A stretch of 64,000 nt of DNA, from the NCBI GenBank assembly GCA_025060635.1, contig JANXBN010000002.1, positions 124,001-188,000 on the forward strand, given 5' to 3'. A model generated the notes under the pieces. That model did no database searches and was not told the origin of the DNA. It saw only the letters and a program-made list of their open reading frames with translations. The DNA comes from Candidatus Kryptonium sp. GTDB lineage: Bacteria; Bacteroidota; Ignavibacteria; Kryptoniales; Kryptoniaceae. Made by a program: the position numbers and the translations under genes. This document shows, piece by piece, positions 18,384 through 60,317 of the stretch (position 1 is the stretch's first letter; every line of letters begins with the position of its first letter).

Positions 18384-18418
18384 TATGACAAGTTCAAAAC
18401 AAAATTCGGAGTGCATCC

Positions 18419-19744
18419 ATGAACTATCCATTCTGGGATGTTCCGGTAATTGGTGGTGGAATTTTAATCGGTATAATTGCGATAATCCATGTCTTTGTCT
18501 CGCACTTTGCGGTGGGTGGAGGACTTTATTTGGCTTTGACAGAAAGAAAAGCAATTAAGGAAAACGATCAGAAGTTAATTGAATATTTAAAGAAGCATTC
18601 AAGATTTTTCCTCCTTTTAACTGTTGTATTAGGTGCTTTGTCAGGCGTTGGAATTTGGTTTTCTATCGGGCTTGTCCATCCATTGGCGACTTCAACTCTT
18701 ATTCATAGCTTCGTTTTTGGATGGGCAATTGAATGGGTATTTTTTATAGTTGAAATTTCAGCAATTTTAATTTACTATGCAACGTGGGATAAACTTGATC
18801 CAAAAACACACAACATAATTGGTTGGATCTATTTCGCAGGTGCATATCTTAGCCTTGTGATTATCAATGGTATATTGACATTTATGCTCACTTCTGGTGG
18901 TTGGATTAATATTCCGTTTACTGAAGCATCAAAGAAATTCTGGGCTGGCTTTTTCAATCCTTCATACTTCCCATCGCTTTTCATTAGAACAGGTGTAACT
19001 TTAGCGCTTGCTGGTTTGTATTCTCTGATAACTGCAACTCGTTTGAAAGATGAAGAATTAAGAACGAAGCTTGTTCAGTATTCTGGAAAGTGGCTTATTC
19101 CAGCATTTATCCTAATTCCTACTGCTGGAATTTGGTATATCTTGGTTATTCCACCGCTTGCTCGCGTGATAATTACTGGTGGAGCTCCAGCTGTCACAAT
19201 TTTCGCTGGGTTAAGCATATTGTTCTCTGTCATTATAGCCTTATTCTCCTGGCTTGGTCCGATTAAAACACCAAAGCAAACATCTTTTGCTTTCGCTCTT
19301 GGACTTCTTGTCATGGGATTCTTAGTTACCGCTGTAACTGAGTGGATGCGAGAGGCAATAAGAAAGCCATACATAATTTATGACTATATGTATTCAAACT
19401 CCGTTATTAAAGCTCACGCTGATAAGATAAATGAAATTGGATCCCTAAAATTTGCCAAATGGGTTACAGTTAAAGAAGTAACAGAGGAAAATATGTTGAA
19501 AGCAGGGGAGGAAATTTTCAAAATTCAGTGTCAGAGTTGCCATACAATTGATGGTTATAATGGGATAAAGAAACTTATTAGTGGATGGAGCGAAGATTAC
19601 ATTGATCTTCAACTTCAATATCTTGATATGCTAAAGGGATTCATGCCACCGTTTTTTGGAACTGAACAAGAAAGAAAAGCCCTTGCGAAATGGCTTTATA
19701 ATTTGAACAATGAGGAAAAAACAAAATATGGGTTTGGAAAATGA
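18419..19744 (+). CDS. Cytochrome bd-superfamily subunit I (CydA-like) with C-terminal cytochrome c domain
   Basis: A 441-residue membrane protein with about nine helices and a C-terminal c-type domain. CydA-like marks: IIHVFVSHFAVGGG with His24 and His29 in helix 1, the Glu pair in AIEWVFFIVEISAI followed by ATWDKL (compare the CydA pattern ending FGWDRL), and REAIRKPYIIYDYMYSNS, a relative of the GRQPWVVYG quinol-loop motif. At about residue 362 lies CQSCH, a heme c site, with FMPPF as a possible Met ligand. This architecture fits the quinol-site-divergent bd relatives with heme c (OR-C type), so the donor may be cytochrome c or quinol. It overlaps the next gene by four bases. Confidence 0.8.
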   Translation: MNYPFWDVPVIGGGILIGIIAIIHVFVSHFAVGGGLYLALTERKAIKENDQKLIEYLKKHSRFFLLLTVVLGALSGVGIWFSIGLVHPLATSTLIHSFVFGWAIEWVFFIVEISAILIYYATWDKLDPKTHNIIGWIYFAGAYLSLVIINGILTFMLTSGGWINIPFTEASKKFWAGFFNPSYFPSLFIRTGVTLALAGLYSLITATRLKDEELRTKLVQYSGKWLIPAFILIPTAGIWYILVIPPLARVIITGGAPAVTIFAGLSILFSVIIALFSWLGPIKTPKQTSFAFALGLLVMGFLVTAVTEWMREAIRKPYIIYDYMYSNSVIKAHADKINEIGSLKFAKWVTVKEVTEENMLKAGEEIFKIQCQSCHTIDGYNGIKKLISGWSEDYIDLQLQYLDMLKGFMPPFFGTEQERKALAKWLYNLNNEEKTKYGFGK

Positions 19745-20856
19745 ATCAACAAATCATAATACCAGAACCAGATCCAATACCTTTGCCAGCACCATTTTGG
19801 CTTTTAAAATTTTTGCTTGTTTTGACCTTTATACTTCATATAATTGCAATGAATTTTGCTCTTGGCGGAGGTATAATTGCTGGAATCACTGATTTGATCG
19901 GTAGAAAAAAGAACAGTCAATTTCATCTTAATCTCGCTCGTTCTCTTTCAAAAATGCTTCCAATAGCTACTGCCTTCACTATAACGCTTGGAATTGCACC
20001 ATTGTTGTTTCTCCAGGTGCTTTACGGACAATACTTTTACACATCTTCAATTATTATCGCTTGGCCCTGGTTGAGCGTTATTTTGCTTTTCCTGATTGGT
20101 TATTATGGATATTATATCTATCAGTTCAATTTTGAGAAATTGCAAGGTGTAAGAGCTTGGATTGTTCTTGGGAGCGCAATTTTGTTTGCGATAATTGGGC
20201 TTATATATACAAATAACCTTGTTTTGATGTTAACACCTGAGAAGTGGGCTCAAAAGTATTTTGCAAATCCACATGGGACTAACCTTAATTTTGATGATCC
20301 AACTGTAATCCCAAGATATCTGCATTTCTTTGTTGCATCTATCGCAGTTGCTGGTTTACTCGTGTTAATTTATGGACTTGTTAAATTGAAAGCAGATGAA
20401 AAATTTGGAAGATGGGCAATTAGATATGGTGGCTTGTGGTTTGTCATTGGGACAGTTGTTCAATATGCGGTTGGGATATGGTTTTTGCTTGCTTTAAGAA
20501 GAGAACATATGATGCTGTTTATGGGTGATAATGTTTTTGCAACTGTTGTTTTTGGTGTTTCTGTTTTACTGTCGCTTATAAGTTTGATTCTAATTTTATT
20601 GTCTTTCAACGCTCAAAACCCAAAGATACTCTCAATTTCCGGTATAGCTATGCTTTTCCTGACAATAGTTGGTATGTCCATAATGCGCGATGTCTTAAGA
20701 GATGCCTATCTCAAAGATTATTTCAATCCGGAACAATTTACGGTTGAACCTCAAATTTCTGTCCTTATAGTTTTTGCTGTTGTTTTTGTTGCTGGTTTGA
20801 TCACAGTTGGATATATGCTATCTAAAGTTCTAAAGGCAAAACCGGCAACTACTTAA
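19741..20856 (+). CDS. CydA-related polytopic partner subunit
   Basis: A 371-residue membrane protein with about nine helices and no CXXCH. Its first helix, FILHIIAMNFALGGG, aligns with that of the upstream gene (IIHVFVSHFAVGGG): His33 matches His24, while the second His is Asn38. Near the C-terminus MRDVLRDAYLKDYF resembles the partner's MREAIRKPYIIYDYM. The two genes are therefore divergent paralogues that probably form a heterodimer in the cytoplasmic membrane, comparable to paired CydA-type subunits. The ATGA overlap implies coupled translation. The heme content of this subunit is uncertain. A terminator follows directly. Confidence 0.72.
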   Translation: MNQQIIIPEPDPIPLPAPFWLLKFLLVLTFILHIIAMNFALGGGIIAGITDLIGRKKNSQFHLNLARSLSKMLPIATAFTITLGIAPLLFLQVLYGQYFYTSSIIIAWPWLSVILLFLIGYYGYYIYQFNFEKLQGVRAWIVLGSAILFAIIGLIYTNNLVLMLTPEKWAQKYFANPHGTNLNFDDPTVIPRYLHFFVASIAVAGLLVLIYGLVKLKADEKFGRWAIRYGGLWFVIGTVVQYAVGIWFLLALRREHMMLFMGDNVFATVVFGVSVLLSLISLILILLSFNAQNPKILSISGIAMLFLTIVGMSIMRDVLRDAYLKDYFNPEQFTVEPQISVLIVFAVVFVAGLITVGYMLSKVLKAKPATT

Positions 20857-54367: not shown

Positions 54368-55216
54368 ATGTTTCAGCGACAAAGTAGGTTTCATGGTTTG
54401 TTGTTTATATTTTTCTTCGTTATTGGTATAATTGCGAGTATATGGGTAGTTATTAGAAACGGATGGTGGCTTCCAGAGCTTGCGTCGGATAGAGAAACGA
54501 TTGATAAAATTTTCGTAACTATATTTATCATTGCGGGTATTTTATTTATTTTGAGCGAACTGGTCCTCTCTTACTTCGTTTTTAAGTACGCTGGTGAGCC
54601 AGGGCGTAAGGCTTTTTACCTTCCAGGAAACACGAAAAAAGAAATTTTATGGTCAATACTTCCAGGAACAATCGTTGTTATAATTCTTGAGATAAGCGCT
54701 GAATTTCTCGGCGGAGCTTCTATATGGGGAAAAATTCATGGTGAAGTTCCCAAAGATGCGTTTCTTGTTGAAATAACAGGAGAACAGTTTGCGTGGAGCA
54801 TAAGATATCCAGGACCTGACGGTAAATTTGGAAAAACAGATCCAAAACTTATTTCATACGATAATCCATTAGGCATTGATATAAGCGATGAGTCAGCTAA
54901 AGATGATATAGTTTTTCCAGCAGGTCAAGGGGTTATGTATCTACCATTGAATCATCCTGTTGTCTTCCTAATAAAATCAAAAGATGTAATTCATAGCCCT
55001 TATTTGCCGAATTTTAGAGTTAAGCAGGATGCGGTTCCAGGGATGACCACAAGAACTTGGTTTATCCCGAAAAAAGAAGGTGAATTTGAACTTGCATGTG
55101 CCGAGCTATGTGGACTTGGACATTATAGAATGAAATTACCGGTTATAGTTGAACCGATGGAGAAAGTGCAAGAATGGTTAAGTCAACAAACACCGGCGGG
55201 CGACATTTATTATTAA
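54368..55216 (+). CDS. coxB: Cytochrome c oxidase subunit II
   Basis: A 282-residue subunit with two N-terminal transmembrane helices (about residues 10-30 and 55-80) and a periplasmic CuA domain. CuA ligands: His in DVIHSPYLPNF, and Cys244, Glu246, Cys248, His252, Met255 in CAELCGLGHYRM. There is no C-terminal cytochrome c domain, so electrons must come from a separate carrier; the cupredoxin upstream is a candidate. It follows that gene by 18 bases. Confidence 0.95.
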   Translation: MFQRQSRFHGLLFIFFFVIGIIASIWVVIRNGWWLPELASDRETIDKIFVTIFIIAGILFILSELVLSYFVFKYAGEPGRKAFYLPGNTKKEILWSILPGTIVVIILEISAEFLGGASIWGKIHGEVPKDAFLVEITGEQFAWSIRYPGPDGKFGKTDPKLISYDNPLGIDISDESAKDDIVFPAGQGVMYLPLNHPVVFLIKSKDVIHSPYLPNFRVKQDAVPGMTTRTWFIPKKEGEFELACAELCGLGHYRMKLPVIVEPMEKVQEWLSQQTPAGDIYY

Positions 55217-55238
55217 AAAATTAATGGAGCTCATACAG

Positions 55239-57005
55239 ATGAAGCATGAACATACTGTAGCTGAAGTCCATCATAAGGAAAATTTCATAACTAAATATAT
55301 ATTCAGCACCGATCATAAAACAATAGCAAAGCAATATCTTATCACTGGGATTGCATGGGGATTTATAGGGATGGTTTTATCATGGTTTATGAGATTACAA
55401 CTTGCTTATCCAAATCAGCCGATTCCATTTCTTGAAAAGATCCTTGGGAAATGGGCAGAAGCTGGGATTTTGAAGCCGGAGTTTTATGCTGCGCTAATAA
55501 CGATGCATGGGACGATAATGGTATTTTTCTTATTAACAGCTGGCTTAAGTGGGACATTTTCAAATTATTTAATTCCATTGCAGATAGGTGCAAGAGATAT
55601 GGCTTTCCCAGTTCTAAATATGCTTTCTTACTGGGTATTTTTCGCTGCTTCGGTTGTAATGTTGGCTTCTTTCTTTGTTCAAACAGGACCTGCTGGCGCT
55701 GGTTGGACAATGTATCCGCCATTAAGTGCTTTAAAAAATGCTATTCCTGGTTCTGATGTTGGGACGACTCTTTGGCTTGTGAGTATGGCTTTATTTATTG
55801 TTTCGTCTTTGCTTGGTGCTTTGAATTATATTACAACTACATTGAACTATAGAACTGTTGGACTGTCTATGTGGCGATTGCCTATAACGGTTTGGGGTAT
55901 GTTTATAACTGCAATTTTGGGGTTGCTTGCTTTCCCAGTTTTGCTTGCAGGCGCGATAATGTTGATTTTTGATCGTGAATTTGGGACGAGCTTTTTTGTC
56001 CCAAGTGGACTTGTTCTCGGTGGACAACCGGTTCAACATGAGGGCGGAAATCCAATTTTATGGCAACATCTTTTCTGGTTTTTAGGACATCCGGAAGTTT
56101 ACATTGTTTTGCTTCCCGCAGTTTCACTTGTTGGTGAAATCTTGGCAACAAATGCAAGAAAACCGCTTTTCGCATATAAAGTTTCAGTTGCCTCTCTGAT
56201 TGGCATTGGTGCTTTGAGCATGATCGTTTGGGGGCATCATATGTATGTAAGTGGTATGAATCCAATCCTTGGTGAAGTTTTTGTCATAACTACGCTTGCG
56301 ATATCTTTCCCAACGGCAATTCTTATATTTAATTATCTTGTGACAATATGGCGTGGAAATTTGCGGTTAACATCTGCGATGTTGTTTGCGCTTGGTTTTC
56401 TTGGTTTGTTTATTCCTGGTGCTTTGACAGGTGCTTTTCTTGCAACTGCACCTGTTGATATTCAACTTCATGATACTTATTTCGTCGTTGCTCATTTTCA
56501 TTTCACAATGGCAACAGCTGCTACATTTGGTATGTTTGCAGGGGTTTATCATTGGTTTCCTAAAATGTTTGGGCGAATGATGAATGAAAAACTTGGTAAG
56601 ATTCATTTCTGGGGCACATTTATAGGTGTGTATCTTATTTTCTTCCCGATGTTCTTCCAAGGTATAGCTGGGGTTCCGAGAAGATATTACTCATTCACTG
56701 AATATAATTTCACATCTCAATTTTTAGGCTTGAATAAATTCATTACAATTGCAGCTTTTATCGCTGGTGCAGTGCAAATTCTCTTCATTTTCAATTTCTT
56801 CTGGAGCATGTTTAAGGGTCCAAAAGCAGAAAAAAATCCGTGGAAAGCTAATACGCTTGAATGGCAAACCGATTCACCACCTCCCCACGGCAATTGGGAT
56901 GGTGAACTTCCAGTTGTTTATCGTGGACCTTATGAATATAGTCCTCCTGGCGTTGAGGAAGACTATGTGCCTCAGACAGTTCCAATTAAGGCGGATTCCA
57001 AATGA
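55239..57005 (+). CDS. ctaD: Cytochrome c oxidase subunit I (aa3 type)
   Basis: The heme-copper catalytic subunit, about 588 residues and twelve helices. Ligands: low-spin heme His in TMHGTIMVFF and VAHFHFTMA; CuB His in FLGHPEVYIVLLP (with cross-linked Tyr and the proton-channel Glu) and WGHHMYVSG; heme a3 His in HDTYFVVAHFHF. The HPEVY Glu marks an A1-type oxidase. ATG 55224 is also in frame, but ATG 55239 has GGAG nine bases upstream. A Pro-rich C-terminal tail ends the protein. Located in the cytoplasmic membrane. Confidence 0.97.
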   Translation: MKHEHTVAEVHHKENFITKYIFSTDHKTIAKQYLITGIAWGFIGMVLSWFMRLQLAYPNQPIPFLEKILGKWAEAGILKPEFYAALITMHGTIMVFFLLTAGLSGTFSNYLIPLQIGARDMAFPVLNMLSYWVFFAASVVMLASFFVQTGPAGAGWTMYPPLSALKNAIPGSDVGTTLWLVSMALFIVSSLLGALNYITTTLNYRTVGLSMWRLPITVWGMFITAILGLLAFPVLLAGAIMLIFDREFGTSFFVPSGLVLGGQPVQHEGGNPILWQHLFWFLGHPEVYIVLLPAVSLVGEILATNARKPLFAYKVSVASLIGIGALSMIVWGHHMYVSGMNPILGEVFVITTLAISFPTAILIFNYLVTIWRGNLRLTSAMLFALGFLGLFIPGALTGAFLATAPVDIQLHDTYFVVAHFHFTMATAATFGMFAGVYHWFPKMFGRMMNEKLGKIHFWGTFIGVYLIFFPMFFQGIAGVPRRYYSFTEYNFTSQFLGLNKFITIAAFIAGAVQILFIFNFFWSMFKGPKAEKNPWKANTLEWQTDSPPPHGNWDGELPVVYRGPYEYSPPGVEEDYVPQTVPIKADSK

Positions 57006-57040
57006 AATCATTTTAAAATTAAAAGTTTGAATCTTTAAAA

Positions 57041-58090
57041 ATGTATTCAAAAGCTTTACATCGCTTTTCGCTTTTAACGGCAGTGTTTACAGTATTCCTG
57101 ATCGCCGTCGGTGCTTCTGTTACAAGCACGGGTTCAGGTGATGCAGTGCCTGATTGGCCACTTTCTTATGGGACGCTTTTTCCAAGAATGGTTGGTGGGG
57201 TTTTATATGAGCATGGACATCGGCTTGTTGCTGGGACAGTCGGAATTTTAATAACAATACTTATGATCTGGTTGTTAAAGAGTAAACAACCTAAATATGT
57301 TAAAGTCCTCGGAGTTATCGCCTTCATTTCTGTGACTTTACAAGCAATACTTGGTGGATTAAGAGTTCTTATTATTTCGGATCCTGAATTACAAGATACT
57401 GCTACAAGGATACTTTCAGTTAGCCATGTTGAACCAGTTAAAATAGCTGTTGCCATCGTTCATGCAACGCTTGCTGAGATAGTTCTTTGTATGACTTTTT
57501 TAATTTCTTTGTTTACATCAAGGGCTTGGAAAAATTTTGAAATTGAACGAATAAATACGGGATTTAAGATCGCAAGATTATATACTTTGACTTTTGTTTT
57601 TGCTTTTATTCAGCTCCTTCTTGGTGCACTTGTAAGGCATACTCAATCTGGAAGCATCATTCCTGATTTTCCTCTTTCATTTGGGAAAATAATACCGCCT
57701 TTTAACGATCTTCCTTATGATCCAAACGCACCTTTCCCAATTACTTATGCTGAACTTCAATTTAAAGTTGCTATACATTTCGCTCATAGAACTTGGGCAT
57801 TTGTAGTAGCTGGAGTTGGAATTTATACATCTATCCTTGCTATAAGAAAAGGTGTTAAGATACTTGGAAATTTTGCGAGTTTATGGATTTTTTTAGTTGT
57901 TTTACAAATTTTACTCGGGGCTTTTGTCATATGGACTAAGCTTTCCGTCGTGGTTACAGTTTTGCATGTTGCAACAGGTGCAACACTTCTTGGGACGACG
58001 CTTATACTTGCTGTGCTGGGATGGAAAGGAGTAATAAGTTCCGTTGCTCTTGAACAAAGAGAGTTAATTCCCTCAAAATTGGGAGTTTAA
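57041..58090 (+). CDS. ctaA: Heme A synthase (COX15/CtaA)
   Basis: A 349-residue, eight-helix membrane enzyme that oxidises the heme O methyl group to formyl, supplying heme A to the oxidase. Conserved blocks: VGASVTSTGSGDAVPDWPLSYG, EHGHRLVAGTVG, then the second half repeat GALVRHTQSGSIIPDFPLSFGK and HFAHRTWAFVV. The four heme-ligand histidines are present. It is directly after ctaD (35 bases). Confidence 0.94.
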   Translation: MYSKALHRFSLLTAVFTVFLIAVGASVTSTGSGDAVPDWPLSYGTLFPRMVGGVLYEHGHRLVAGTVGILITILMIWLLKSKQPKYVKVLGVIAFISVTLQAILGGLRVLIISDPELQDTATRILSVSHVEPVKIAVAIVHATLAEIVLCMTFLISLFTSRAWKNFEIERINTGFKIARLYTLTFVFAFIQLLLGALVRHTQSGSIIPDFPLSFGKIIPPFNDLPYDPNAPFPITYAELQFKVAIHFAHRTWAFVVAGVGIYTSILAIRKGVKILGNFASLWIFLVVLQILLGAFVIWTKLSVVVTVLHVATGATLLGTTLILAVLGWKGVISSVALEQRELIPSKLGV

Positions 58091-58094
58091 ATTT

Positions 58095-58961
58095 ATGGTA
58101 TTCCAAAAATTTTCAAAATTTTTCAAGGATTTTCTTCTCTTGATAAAACATCGCTTGACAACGCTTGTGGTATTTACGACCGGAATGGGATATTTGATCG
58201 CAAGGAAGGGAGAGATAGATTTATTAAACTTTGTAATCACAATTCTTGGAGTTTTCCTTGTTGTCGGTTCTGCGAATGCGATGAATCAAGTTTTTGAGCA
58301 AAAAGTTGATGGAATGATGAAAAGAACTGCCGGAAGACCTTTGCCAAGTAATAGAATGAAAAAAGAAACCGCAGTTTTAATTGCAGTTTTGATGTTAATT
58401 TTCGGAGAGTATATGCTTTACAAATTTGTAAATTCTATAAGCGCAATACTTGCGTTGATTGCTTTCATAATCTATGTTTTCGCTTATACTCCGTTAAAGA
58501 GGATAACTCCGTTTTGCACATTTATCGGCGCTATTCCAGGAGCAATTCCGCCTGTTATCGGTTGGACTGCGGTAAGGGGACAAATAGAGTTAGGAGCGAT
58601 TATTTTGTTTGGGATTCAATTTATATGGCAATTTCCACATTTTTGGTCAATTGCTCTCTTGTGCAAATCTGATTATGAAAGAGCTGGCTTCAAAGTGTTG
58701 CCGTCTTCTAATGATAGAGTGACGGCAATAAATCTTGTTATTTACACATTTATGCTTTTACCTATGGGATTGATGCCAACTATAGCTGGTTTTGCGGGGA
58801 AATATGCACTTGTTATTTCAATTTTAGTAGGAAGTTTATTTTTCCTTCAAACGCTTTCGCTTTTGAGGGAAAATTCAACACGCTCTGCGAAAAAAATCAT
58901 GGTTATGGCTGAAATTTATCTTCCGTTAATTCTCGTCTTTCTTCTTATTGATAAAATTTAA
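58095..58961 (+). CDS. ctaB: Protoheme IX farnesyltransferase (heme O synthase)
   Basis: A 288-residue UbiA-superfamily prenyltransferase that adds a farnesyl group to heme B, the step before CtaA. The first Asp-rich motif appears as NAMNQVFEQKVDGMMKRTAGRPLPS and the second region as YTPLKRITPFCTFIGAIPGAIPPVIGW. About eight to nine helices. The start is four bases after the ctaA stop. Confidence 0.95.
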   Translation: MVFQKFSKFFKDFLLLIKHRLTTLVVFTTGMGYLIARKGEIDLLNFVITILGVFLVVGSANAMNQVFEQKVDGMMKRTAGRPLPSNRMKKETAVLIAVLMLIFGEYMLYKFVNSISAILALIAFIIYVFAYTPLKRITPFCTFIGAIPGAIPPVIGWTAVRGQIELGAIILFGIQFIWQFPHFWSIALLCKSDYERAGFKVLPSSNDRVTAINLVIYTFMLLPMGLMPTIAGFAGKYALVISILVGSLFFLQTLSLLRENSTRSAKKIMVMAEIYLPLILVFLLIDKI

Positions 58962-58985
58962 AAACAATTCTTGAGGCAGTGAATT

Positions 58986-59627
58986 ATGGTGAATGAAAAA
59001 AGAAGCATATCTTCAAATATAGATTCTGGAAAAATTTTTAACAACGGAGGTGCTGGGGGTGCTGGCGGGCATTCTTATTCATATGCCCTGCCAGTCAACC
59101 CTGCAAAATTTGGATTATGGTTATTTATAGCTGCGATAATTATGCTTTTTTCAGCCTTAACAAGCGCTTATATTGTAAGACATTCTGCTGGAAATTGGTT
59201 TGAATTTGAATTGCCCGTAATTTTCTGGTTTAACACTTTGATTTTGATATTAAGCAGTGTGACGATTCAAGTAAGTTATTTTAAGTTAAAAAATGGCGAT
59301 CTTGTTGGATTTAAGTCATTTTTCTTGCTTTCGGCCTTGCTTGGTGTTTCTTTTTTGATTGGACAAATAATTGGTTGGAATCAACTCGCTAAGATGGGGG
59401 TTTATGTAAGCACAAATCCATCAAGTTCGTTTTTTTATCTTTTAACGGGTGCGCATGCTGTTCATCTTGCAGGTGGGGTTATCGCTTTGATTTATGTTAT
59501 GATCAAAGCACTACTTGGTTATTATAACTCACATAACAAACTTGGTGTTGAACTTTGCATAACTTATTGGCATTTTCTTGACATTCTATGGCTCTATCTT
59601 TTCGTTTTTATAAACCTAACAACATAA
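58986..59627 (+). CDS. Cytochrome c oxidase subunit III, copy 1
   Basis: A 213-residue five-helix subunit III-like protein. The N-terminus has a polar, glycine-rich run (NNGGAGGAGGHSYSYALP) before the first helix. Family motifs: KFGLWLFIAAIIMLFSAL, GAHAVHLAGGVIALIY and the final YWHFLDILWLYLFVFI. It lies 24 bases after ctaB and 24 before a second subunit III gene. Whether both enter the same complex is not known. Confidence 0.88.
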   Translation: MVNEKRSISSNIDSGKIFNNGGAGGAGGHSYSYALPVNPAKFGLWLFIAAIIMLFSALTSAYIVRHSAGNWFEFELPVIFWFNTLILILSSVTIQVSYFKLKNGDLVGFKSFFLLSALLGVSFLIGQIIGWNQLAKMGVYVSTNPSSSFFYLLTGAHAVHLAGGVIALIYVMIKALLGYYNSHNKLGVELCITYWHFLDILWLYLFVFINLTT

Positions 59628-59651
59628 AAACAAATTGAGGAAATTGATAGA

Positions 59652-60317
59652 ATGACCCAAGAATTGATGCTTGAGCAGGAAAAAGTCCTGAAATCACCTT
59701 GGGGTGGTGGAAGATCACCTTTCGGTGTGTCAAGGGATAAATTTACTATGTGGATTTTTATACTTTCTGATGCTTTTACATTTGGAGGGTTGCTTGCTGC
59801 ATATGGTGCTTTGAGGGCAAGTTTACCAAGTTGGCCAAGTAGGATTGAAATTTTTTCCGCTTTTCCATTTACAAGTGCGAAATTACCACTTCTTTTTGTC
59901 AGCATAATGACATTTATTCTAATCTGTAGTAGTTTAACAATGGCTCTTGCTGTTGATGCAGGAAAAAGAATGGATAGAAAAGGTGTGCTTAAATATCTTT
60001 TACTTACAATAGGCGGTGGTTTATTGTTTTTAATGTGTCAGGCATACGAATGGGGACATTTGATTCATGAAGGAGCGCGTCTTACAAGTAATCCTTGGGG
60101 TGTTCCGTTGTTTTCTGCTTCTTTCTTTGTTATAACAGGATTTCATGGCTCACATGTTTTGAGTGGCGTTATCGTTTTAATTGTCATGGCAATAAGAGTT
60201 GCGAAGGGAATTTATGATAAACGAGGTTCATATGAGGGTGTTGAAGTTGCCGGACTTTATTGGCATTTCGTTGACCTTGTTTGGGTTTTCATTTTTGCGT
60301 TTTTCTATCTTCTTTAA
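59652..60317 (+). CDS. ctaE: Cytochrome c oxidase subunit III, copy 2
   Basis: A 221-residue subunit III with motifs TMWIFILSDAFTFGGLL, CQAYEWGHLIHEG (the conserved Glu), FFVITGFHGSHVLSGV and GLYWHFVDLVWVFIFA. It is more canonical than copy 1 and only distantly similar to it. Position and order (III-III-IV) match oxidase operons of Chlorobiota and Bacteroidota, in which two COX3-family genes are common. Membrane-embedded; it stabilises subunit I. Confidence 0.92.
   Translation: MTQELMLEQEKVLKSPWGGGRSPFGVSRDKFTMWIFILSDAFTFGGLLAAYGALRASLPSWPSRIEIFSAFPFTSAKLPLLFVSIMTFILICSSLTMALAVDAGKRMDRKGVLKYLLLTIGGGLLFLMCQAYEWGHLIHEGARLTSNPWGVPLFSASFFVITGFHGSHVLSGVIVLIVMAIRVAKGIYDKRGSYEGVEVAGLYWHFVDLVWVFIFAFFYLL

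Follow-up and report, generated by a model that had tools for sequence, protein, structure and literature searches.

A gene pair for two CydA-like proteins, one with a fused heme c domain, as a probable bd-type cytochrome c:O2 reductase

Results

Two overlapping genes of the cytochrome bd superfamily

The window, a stretch of 64,000 nucleotides, carries two overlapping open reading frames at positions 18,419 to 20,856, each of which matches CydA, as expected from the original prediction of a two-gene module of the cytochrome bd superfamily. The pair stands alone between a divergent TonB-like gene on one side and a convergent gene of 1,022 aa on the other. Its main features are as follows.

18408..18411, + strand: GGAG, probable ribosome-binding site of gene 1 (direct sequence)
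18419..19744, + strand: gene 1, CydA-superfamily subunit with a C-terminal cytochrome c, 441 aa (Pfam, AF2, structure comparison)
18452..19402, + strand: CydA-like 8-helix core of gene 1, residues 12-328 (VIA-align, 314 residues on 5doq_A, rmsd 2.4 A)
19481..19726, + strand: cytochrome c6-like domain of gene 1, residues 355-436 (against cytochrome c6, Z 7.5, rmsd 2.8 A, 77 residues; Pfam)
19741..19744, + strand: ATGA, 4-base overlap of gene 1 stop and gene 2 start (direct sequence)
19741..20856, + strand: gene 2, 371 aa with 9 predicted TM helices, a paralogue of CydA type that lacks heme c (5doq_A match, AF2)

Gene 1 matched two Pfam families, Cyt_bd_oxida_I (PF01654, E = 2.6e-14, over the cut-off) and Cytochrome_CBB3 (PF13442, E = 1.4e-8), and its sequence matched the solved CydA 5doq_A at E = 4e-7. 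The Pfam scan placed gene 2 in no family over the cut-off. Gene 2 can nevertheless be identified as a paralogue of gene 1 because it matches 5doq_A (E = 0.0029) and also aligns with gene 1 at 26% identity (E = 1.5e-10 and 8.6e-12).

Predicted folds agreed with these matches. The AF2 model of gene 1 had a mean pLDDT of 91 (alignment of 56 homologues), and its top matches among solved structures were CydA chains, with Z scores of 30-33; for most of them, about 314 residues superposed with rmsd values of 2.4-2.7 A. The model of gene 2 (mean pLDDT 95, alignment of 66 homologues) also had the CydA chain 5doq_A as its top match, with Z 30.1 and an rmsd of 3.0 A across 351 residues; in the Foldseek ranking, CydA stood above the CydB chains. 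The predicted architecture, a CydA-like core with a fused C-terminal cytochrome c in gene 1 and the same fold without heme c in gene 2, is thus borne out. The N terminus of cytochrome bd is periplasmic, so the eight TM helices in the gene 1 model would place the heme c domain on the periplasmic side.

Active-site ligands are retained in gene 1, and the quinol site is not

In E. coli bd-II, His186 and Met393 bind heme b558, Glu445 binds heme b595, and His19 binds heme d (PMC8585947). Conservation at the corresponding positions was counted in an alignment of 87 homologues for gene 1 and in 83 rows for gene 2. The gene 1 residues of interest are encoded as follows.

18488..18490, + strand: codon of H24, TM1 heme ligand (E. 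coli H19), in 83 of 87 homologues and missing only in the f16 lineage
18731..18754, + strand: codons of E105 to E112, TM3 acidic pair, aligning with the 5doq_A pair at an identical spacing of 7
18986..18988, + strand: codon of R190, invariant in 87 homologues; the adjoining column is that of H186, a b558 ligand (qOR alignment)
19340..19369, + strand: codons of E308-P317 (EWMREAIRKP), with E312 at the E445 heme ligand position and R315 as the GRQPW Arg (alignment)
19529..19543, + strand: heme c motif CQSCH, C371-H375 (direct sequence), in 83 of 87 homologues
19643..19645, + strand: codon of M409, probable distal heme c ligand, present with CxxCH in 82 of 83 homologues (one gap) and gone with CxxCH in f16

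Aligned to the qOR structures, H24, E105, and E312 of gene 1 are the predicted ligands of two active-site hemes. Within the acidic pair, E105 was lost in f16 only, and E112 was found in all 87 homologues. The positions that serve heme b558 and quinol are different. In the alignment with qOR, the H186 column holds I189 in gene 1 rather than His, the M393 column has no conserved Met among gene 1 homologues, and the stretch between TM6 and TM7 measures 21-31 residues in gene 1 homologues compared to 84-95 in qOR, which amounts to loss of the Q-loop. As the b558 ligand columns are changed and the Q-loop is reduced, heme c probably replaces heme b558.

Several details of the original prediction need correction in light of these alignments. 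The CQSCH motif lies at residues 371-375, not near residue 362. The segment 'REAIRKPYIIYDYM', described as a changed quinol-loop motif, aligns instead with AE(V/I)GRQPW, which holds the heme ligand Glu445/Glu378 and the Arg of GRQPW (REAIRKPY is that segment), and the real change at the quinol site is the missing Q-loop. Attention had also been drawn to a second His in TM1; this residue, H29, corresponds to no known heme ligand of bd enzymes and is His in 68 of 87 homologues, and the ligand is the first His, H24, which gene 2 keeps as H33.

One lineage has lost the ligands jointly

A group of four homologues (f16; L059-L062) has lost H24, E105, E312, R315, CxxCH, and M409 altogether, while its gene 1 keeps E112, R190, E308, R311, and P317. 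Every one of the other 83 homologues has H24, E105, E312, R315, and CxxCH. Joint loss in four of four compared to joint retention in 83 of 83 indicates that these residues act as one functional unit, and the ligand assignment gains support because f16 lost its heme c together with the catalytic ligands. The f16 gene 1 is still an intact open frame; its cluster includes Rieske and cytochrome b genes, and COX1 and COX2 genes adjoin it. With heme-copper oxidase genes this close, the dead f16 protein may have turned structural there.

Gene 2 has a partial heme site

Candidate residues in gene 2 are encoded as follows.

19837..19839, + strand: codon of H33, TM1, possible heme ligand, in 82 of 83 gene 2 rows (one gap)
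20323..20325, + strand: codon of H195, aligned with H186, a b558 ligand (gene 2 row counts by Rieske-cytochrome b context)
20686..20700, + strand: codons of R316 to R320, counterparts of gene 1 R311 and R315, 95-96% conserved

H33, R316, R320, and usually H195 make up a partial heme site. The TM3 Glu is missing, and the M393 column of the alignment offers no second ligand that is conserved. A series of polar positions in TM2-TM3 is conserved. Both folds, predicted as single chains, are CydA-like with conserved candidate ligands, which is not the outcome that the earlier work named as refuting (a predicted structure without buried heme ligands in either subunit).

The occurrence of H195 followed gene context. 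It was found in 59 of 60 gene 2 rows that lacked Rieske and cytochrome b genes beside the pair, in 2 of 19 rows that had them, and in none of the four f16 rows. That the Rieske and cytochrome b genes caused its loss is only a lead, as the change amounts to just two events on the gene 2 tree, as the independent-pair test has no power, and as the gene 2 proteins of Thermus and Methylosinus lack H195 yet have no adjacent bc pair.

Relatives keep the pair together in many phyla

A scan of one genome per species yielded at least 547 confirmed relatives, and we examined 91 loci, consisting of the best 80 of these and 11 from a phylum sample. Gene 2 lay beside gene 1 in 88 of the 91, across many phyla, and strong matches to the two genes fell in exactly the same 12 of the 198 genomes in the phylum sample. 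The architecture seen in the window is one heme c on gene 1 with gene 2 adjacent. Rieske and cytochrome b genes accompanied the pair in 25 of the 91 loci, mostly in the order gene 2-Rieske-cytochrome b-gene 1, in Chlorobi, Acidobacteriota, Verrucomicrobiota, Armatimonadota, and Cyanobacteriota, and their position within the pair suggests a bc-bd unit.

Gene 1 carries two to eight heme c motifs in other loci. Versions with two to four occur in Desulfuromonadales, Acidobacteriota, and others, and in an arrangement seen mostly in Desulfobulbaceae and Bacteroidota, gene 2 precedes a gene 1 that has eight CxxCH, of which seven belong to a multiheme extension. Examples of the long C-terminal extension with seven further CxxCH are L089:8001-10640, L107:3187-5838, and L142:7932-10661 (Desulfobulbaceae, Bacteroidota, and others); Pfam gave MtrC/MtrF-like and c7-type matches for the two that were scanned.

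Other variants were also seen. Gene 1 is present as a tandem duplicate upstream of gene 2, with heme c on each copy, at L064:8001-11722 (an Ignavibacteriae MAG) and L066:8001-11729 (a MAG), and a gene 2 homologue at L058:6091-7440 has its own C-terminal heme c, giving one on each subunit. The g3 proteins (L041, L042, L044, and L051), relatives of gene 2 of about 450-470 aa from the same bacterial class, lack the TM1 His and carry heme c at the C terminus; in one genome (G039), g3 lies near COX1 and NrfD genes.

In our tree, gene 1 rows formed one clade (branch support, 98) separate from qOR (99) and OR-N (99). Gene 2 and the g3 proteins lay across a branch with a support of 100 from gene 1, making gene 2 a deeper paralogue. 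Gene 1 thus falls inside the bd superfamily beside qOR and OR-N, in agreement with the assignment that the tree had been proposed to check. Among the matches listed, the closest to the window pair, by scan and tree, were from Ignavibacteriota.

The genome offers a possible electron supply

The genome contains one CydA (gene 1), one COX1, one cytochrome b, and genes for cytochrome c assembly. CydB (PF02322) had no match anywhere in the genome, with positive controls. A separate aa3 oxidase was predicted elsewhere in the window, and its genes lie at 54368-60317. About 0.75 kb past the window end is a set encoding a Rieske protein, cytochrome b6, a subunit IV-like protein, and an 866-aa cytochrome with eight CxxCH (L153:2755-7696, equivalent to G000:C2:188754-193695), and the only cytochrome b of the genome belongs to this set. 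Alternative complex III was considered as a donor and rejected; the sole NrfD gene adjoins an iron-sulfur protein gene, and no other genes of that complex were recognized.

Discussion

By combining ligand conservation, predicted folds, and gene neighborhoods, we arrive at a reading of the pair as probably a two-subunit bd-type cytochrome c:O2 reductase, with its own heme c as the entry point for periplasmic electrons. Gene 1 and gene 2 would form a heterodimer in which gene 2 takes the place held by CydB in cytochrome bd. A periplasmic donor would reduce heme c, acting in the role of heme b558, and electrons would then reach the heme pair of gene 1, the proposed site of O2 reduction with cytoplasmic protons. 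Such a reaction would move one charge per electron, with no pumping. The usual electron acceptor of a Rieske/cytochrome b complex is a cytochrome c, and the likely upstream quinol oxidizer in this organism would be the Rieske, cytochrome b6, subunit IV, and 8-heme cytochrome set past the window end. The heterodimeric reductase fed through heme c that was originally proposed remains the best reading by tree and folds, although the quinol-loop motif offered with it was misidentified and the heme site of gene 2 is only partial; the finding was sound, and its interpretation was mostly correct.

The pair is best read as an enzyme of the OR-C kind, a family of the cytochrome bd superfamily said to have been named by Murali, Gennis, and Hemp in 2021 in ISME J 15:3534. 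Recognized bd subfamilies include qOR, OR-C, and OR-N (PMC13189123). Gene 1 resembles OR-C (PMC10839748, PMC13189123) in having a CydA core that keeps the active-site ligands, in lacking a quinol site, and in carrying a C-terminal heme c. A search of titles and abstracts for bd-like proteins with CxxCH returned nothing on an OR-C-type family, and we found no biochemical or enzyme-level study of OR-C in the literature searched.

The OR-N enzymes, or CydAA', of Nitrospirota and Nitrospinota also consist of two CydA paralogues that are proposed to pair, have no quinol site, and have a proposed cytochrome c donor (PMC10839748, PMC12342949, PMC6606698). They are treated as probable cytochrome c-oxidizing O2 reductases without experimental confirmation (PMC10839748), and in Nitrospira, where the bd-like genes lie near complex III genes, a complex III-bd-like supercomplex has been suggested (PMC6606698). 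The window pair shares with them the two CydA paralogues, co-conserved here in 88 of 91 loci, and the missing quinol site, but OR-N proteins form their own clade, are 583-647 aa long in the rows examined, have His in the H186 column, and carry no fused heme c. The archaeal CydAA' of Caldivirga, reportedly described in the abstract of Murali et al. as a quinol-dependent oxygen reductase of two CydA paralogues without heme c, resembles the window pair in its paralogues and differs in its quinol dependence and lack of heme c. Canonical CydAB enzymes of the qOR type (5doq, 6rko) share the subunit I fold and diheme ligands; compared to them, the window pair lacks the Q-loop and the b558 ligands H186 and M393, has an added heme c, and has a second subunit that by sequence is CydA-like rather than CydB. 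In the bcc:aa3 and bc1:caa3 supercomplexes, Rieske/cytochrome b proteins feed an oxidase via a bound cytochrome c (PMC8361435), as we propose for the clustered relatives. The oxidase of those relatives is bd-type rather than heme-copper, however, and the window genome has no such single cluster.

A broader version of this proposal is possible and is put forward tentatively. The pair may be the oxidase half of a modular bd respiratory unit. Together with Rieske and cytochrome b proteins (25 loci), it would make up a self-contained quinol:O2 supercomplex of the bc-bd type; multiheme additions would let it draw on other periplasmic carriers; and the heme-dead f16 remnant would persist in a bc-caa3 assembly, in a structural role.

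Other functions deserve consideration. Many relatives with extra heme c motifs belong to Desulfobulbaceae and Desulfuromonadales, lineages usually regarded as anaerobic, where O2 reduction may at most be scavenging or the substrate may be another one. Extended to the pair as a whole, this would mean a detoxification enzyme that scavenges O2, or a reductase acting on NO or on some oxide of nitrogen or sulfur, in place of an energy-conserving terminal oxidase. Members of the bd group are involved in NO and O2 defense, the genome already has an aa3 oxidase, and relatives with eight hemes c come from Desulfobulbaceae and Bacteroidales, groups rich in anaerobes. We nevertheless consider such a function unlikely, as the ligands match those at the O2-reducing site of bd enzymes, relatives cluster with Rieske and cytochrome b genes, and no nitrogen-oxide enzyme was recognized among the genes beside the pair.

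Quinol oxidation through gene 2 seems a rather poor prospect as well. Such an enzyme would bind quinol and heme b with H33, H195, and the conserved Q92, Y95, and Y100, pass electrons across to gene 1, and use heme c as a side route in or out. The conserved polar run in TM2-TM3 fits this arrangement, and H195 is distributed as if a bc part had replaced it, but two tree events and the Thermus and Methylosinus counterexamples weaken that pattern, the Q-loop is absent, and gene 2 has no conserved second ligand at the M393 position. A noncatalytic electron-transfer or scaffold complex with the bd fold is very improbable. The intact f16 frames that persist with Rieske and cytochrome b next to COX1 and COX2, and the g3 proteins, with heme c and no TM1 His, are what such a complex might look like; the window protein and all 83 homologues outside f16 have the full ligand set.

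Although the OR-C branch was already known from sequence, its constant partner and probable second subunit is identified here, and the lineage that lost them all together supplies a set of residues that marks out the predicted OR-C active site. If the cytochrome c:O2 reductase reading is confirmed, cytochrome c oxidases would count among the bd-type enzymes, a different donor would be available for comparisons of O2 affinity and inhibitor tolerance, and a predicted oxidase would be added in many phyla. The neighborhood evidence makes the function directly testable, and cultivated hosts are available: pairs are carried on plasmids of Thermus thermophilus (L178:6235-8801), Methylosinus sp. C49 (L179:8983-11604), and Agrobacterium tumefaciens LN-1 (L180:8932-11495). 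One cultivated Thermus carrier is T. thermophilus SNM1-7. Gene 1 is annotated in these hosts only as "cytochrome c" or "c-type cytochrome," and its partner is annotated as "hypothetical protein" or "cytochrome C." The Methylosinus pair lies near methanobactin genes, and both the Methylosinus and Agrobacterium pairs are followed by genes for an ATP-binding protein resembling a sensor kinase and a response regulator.
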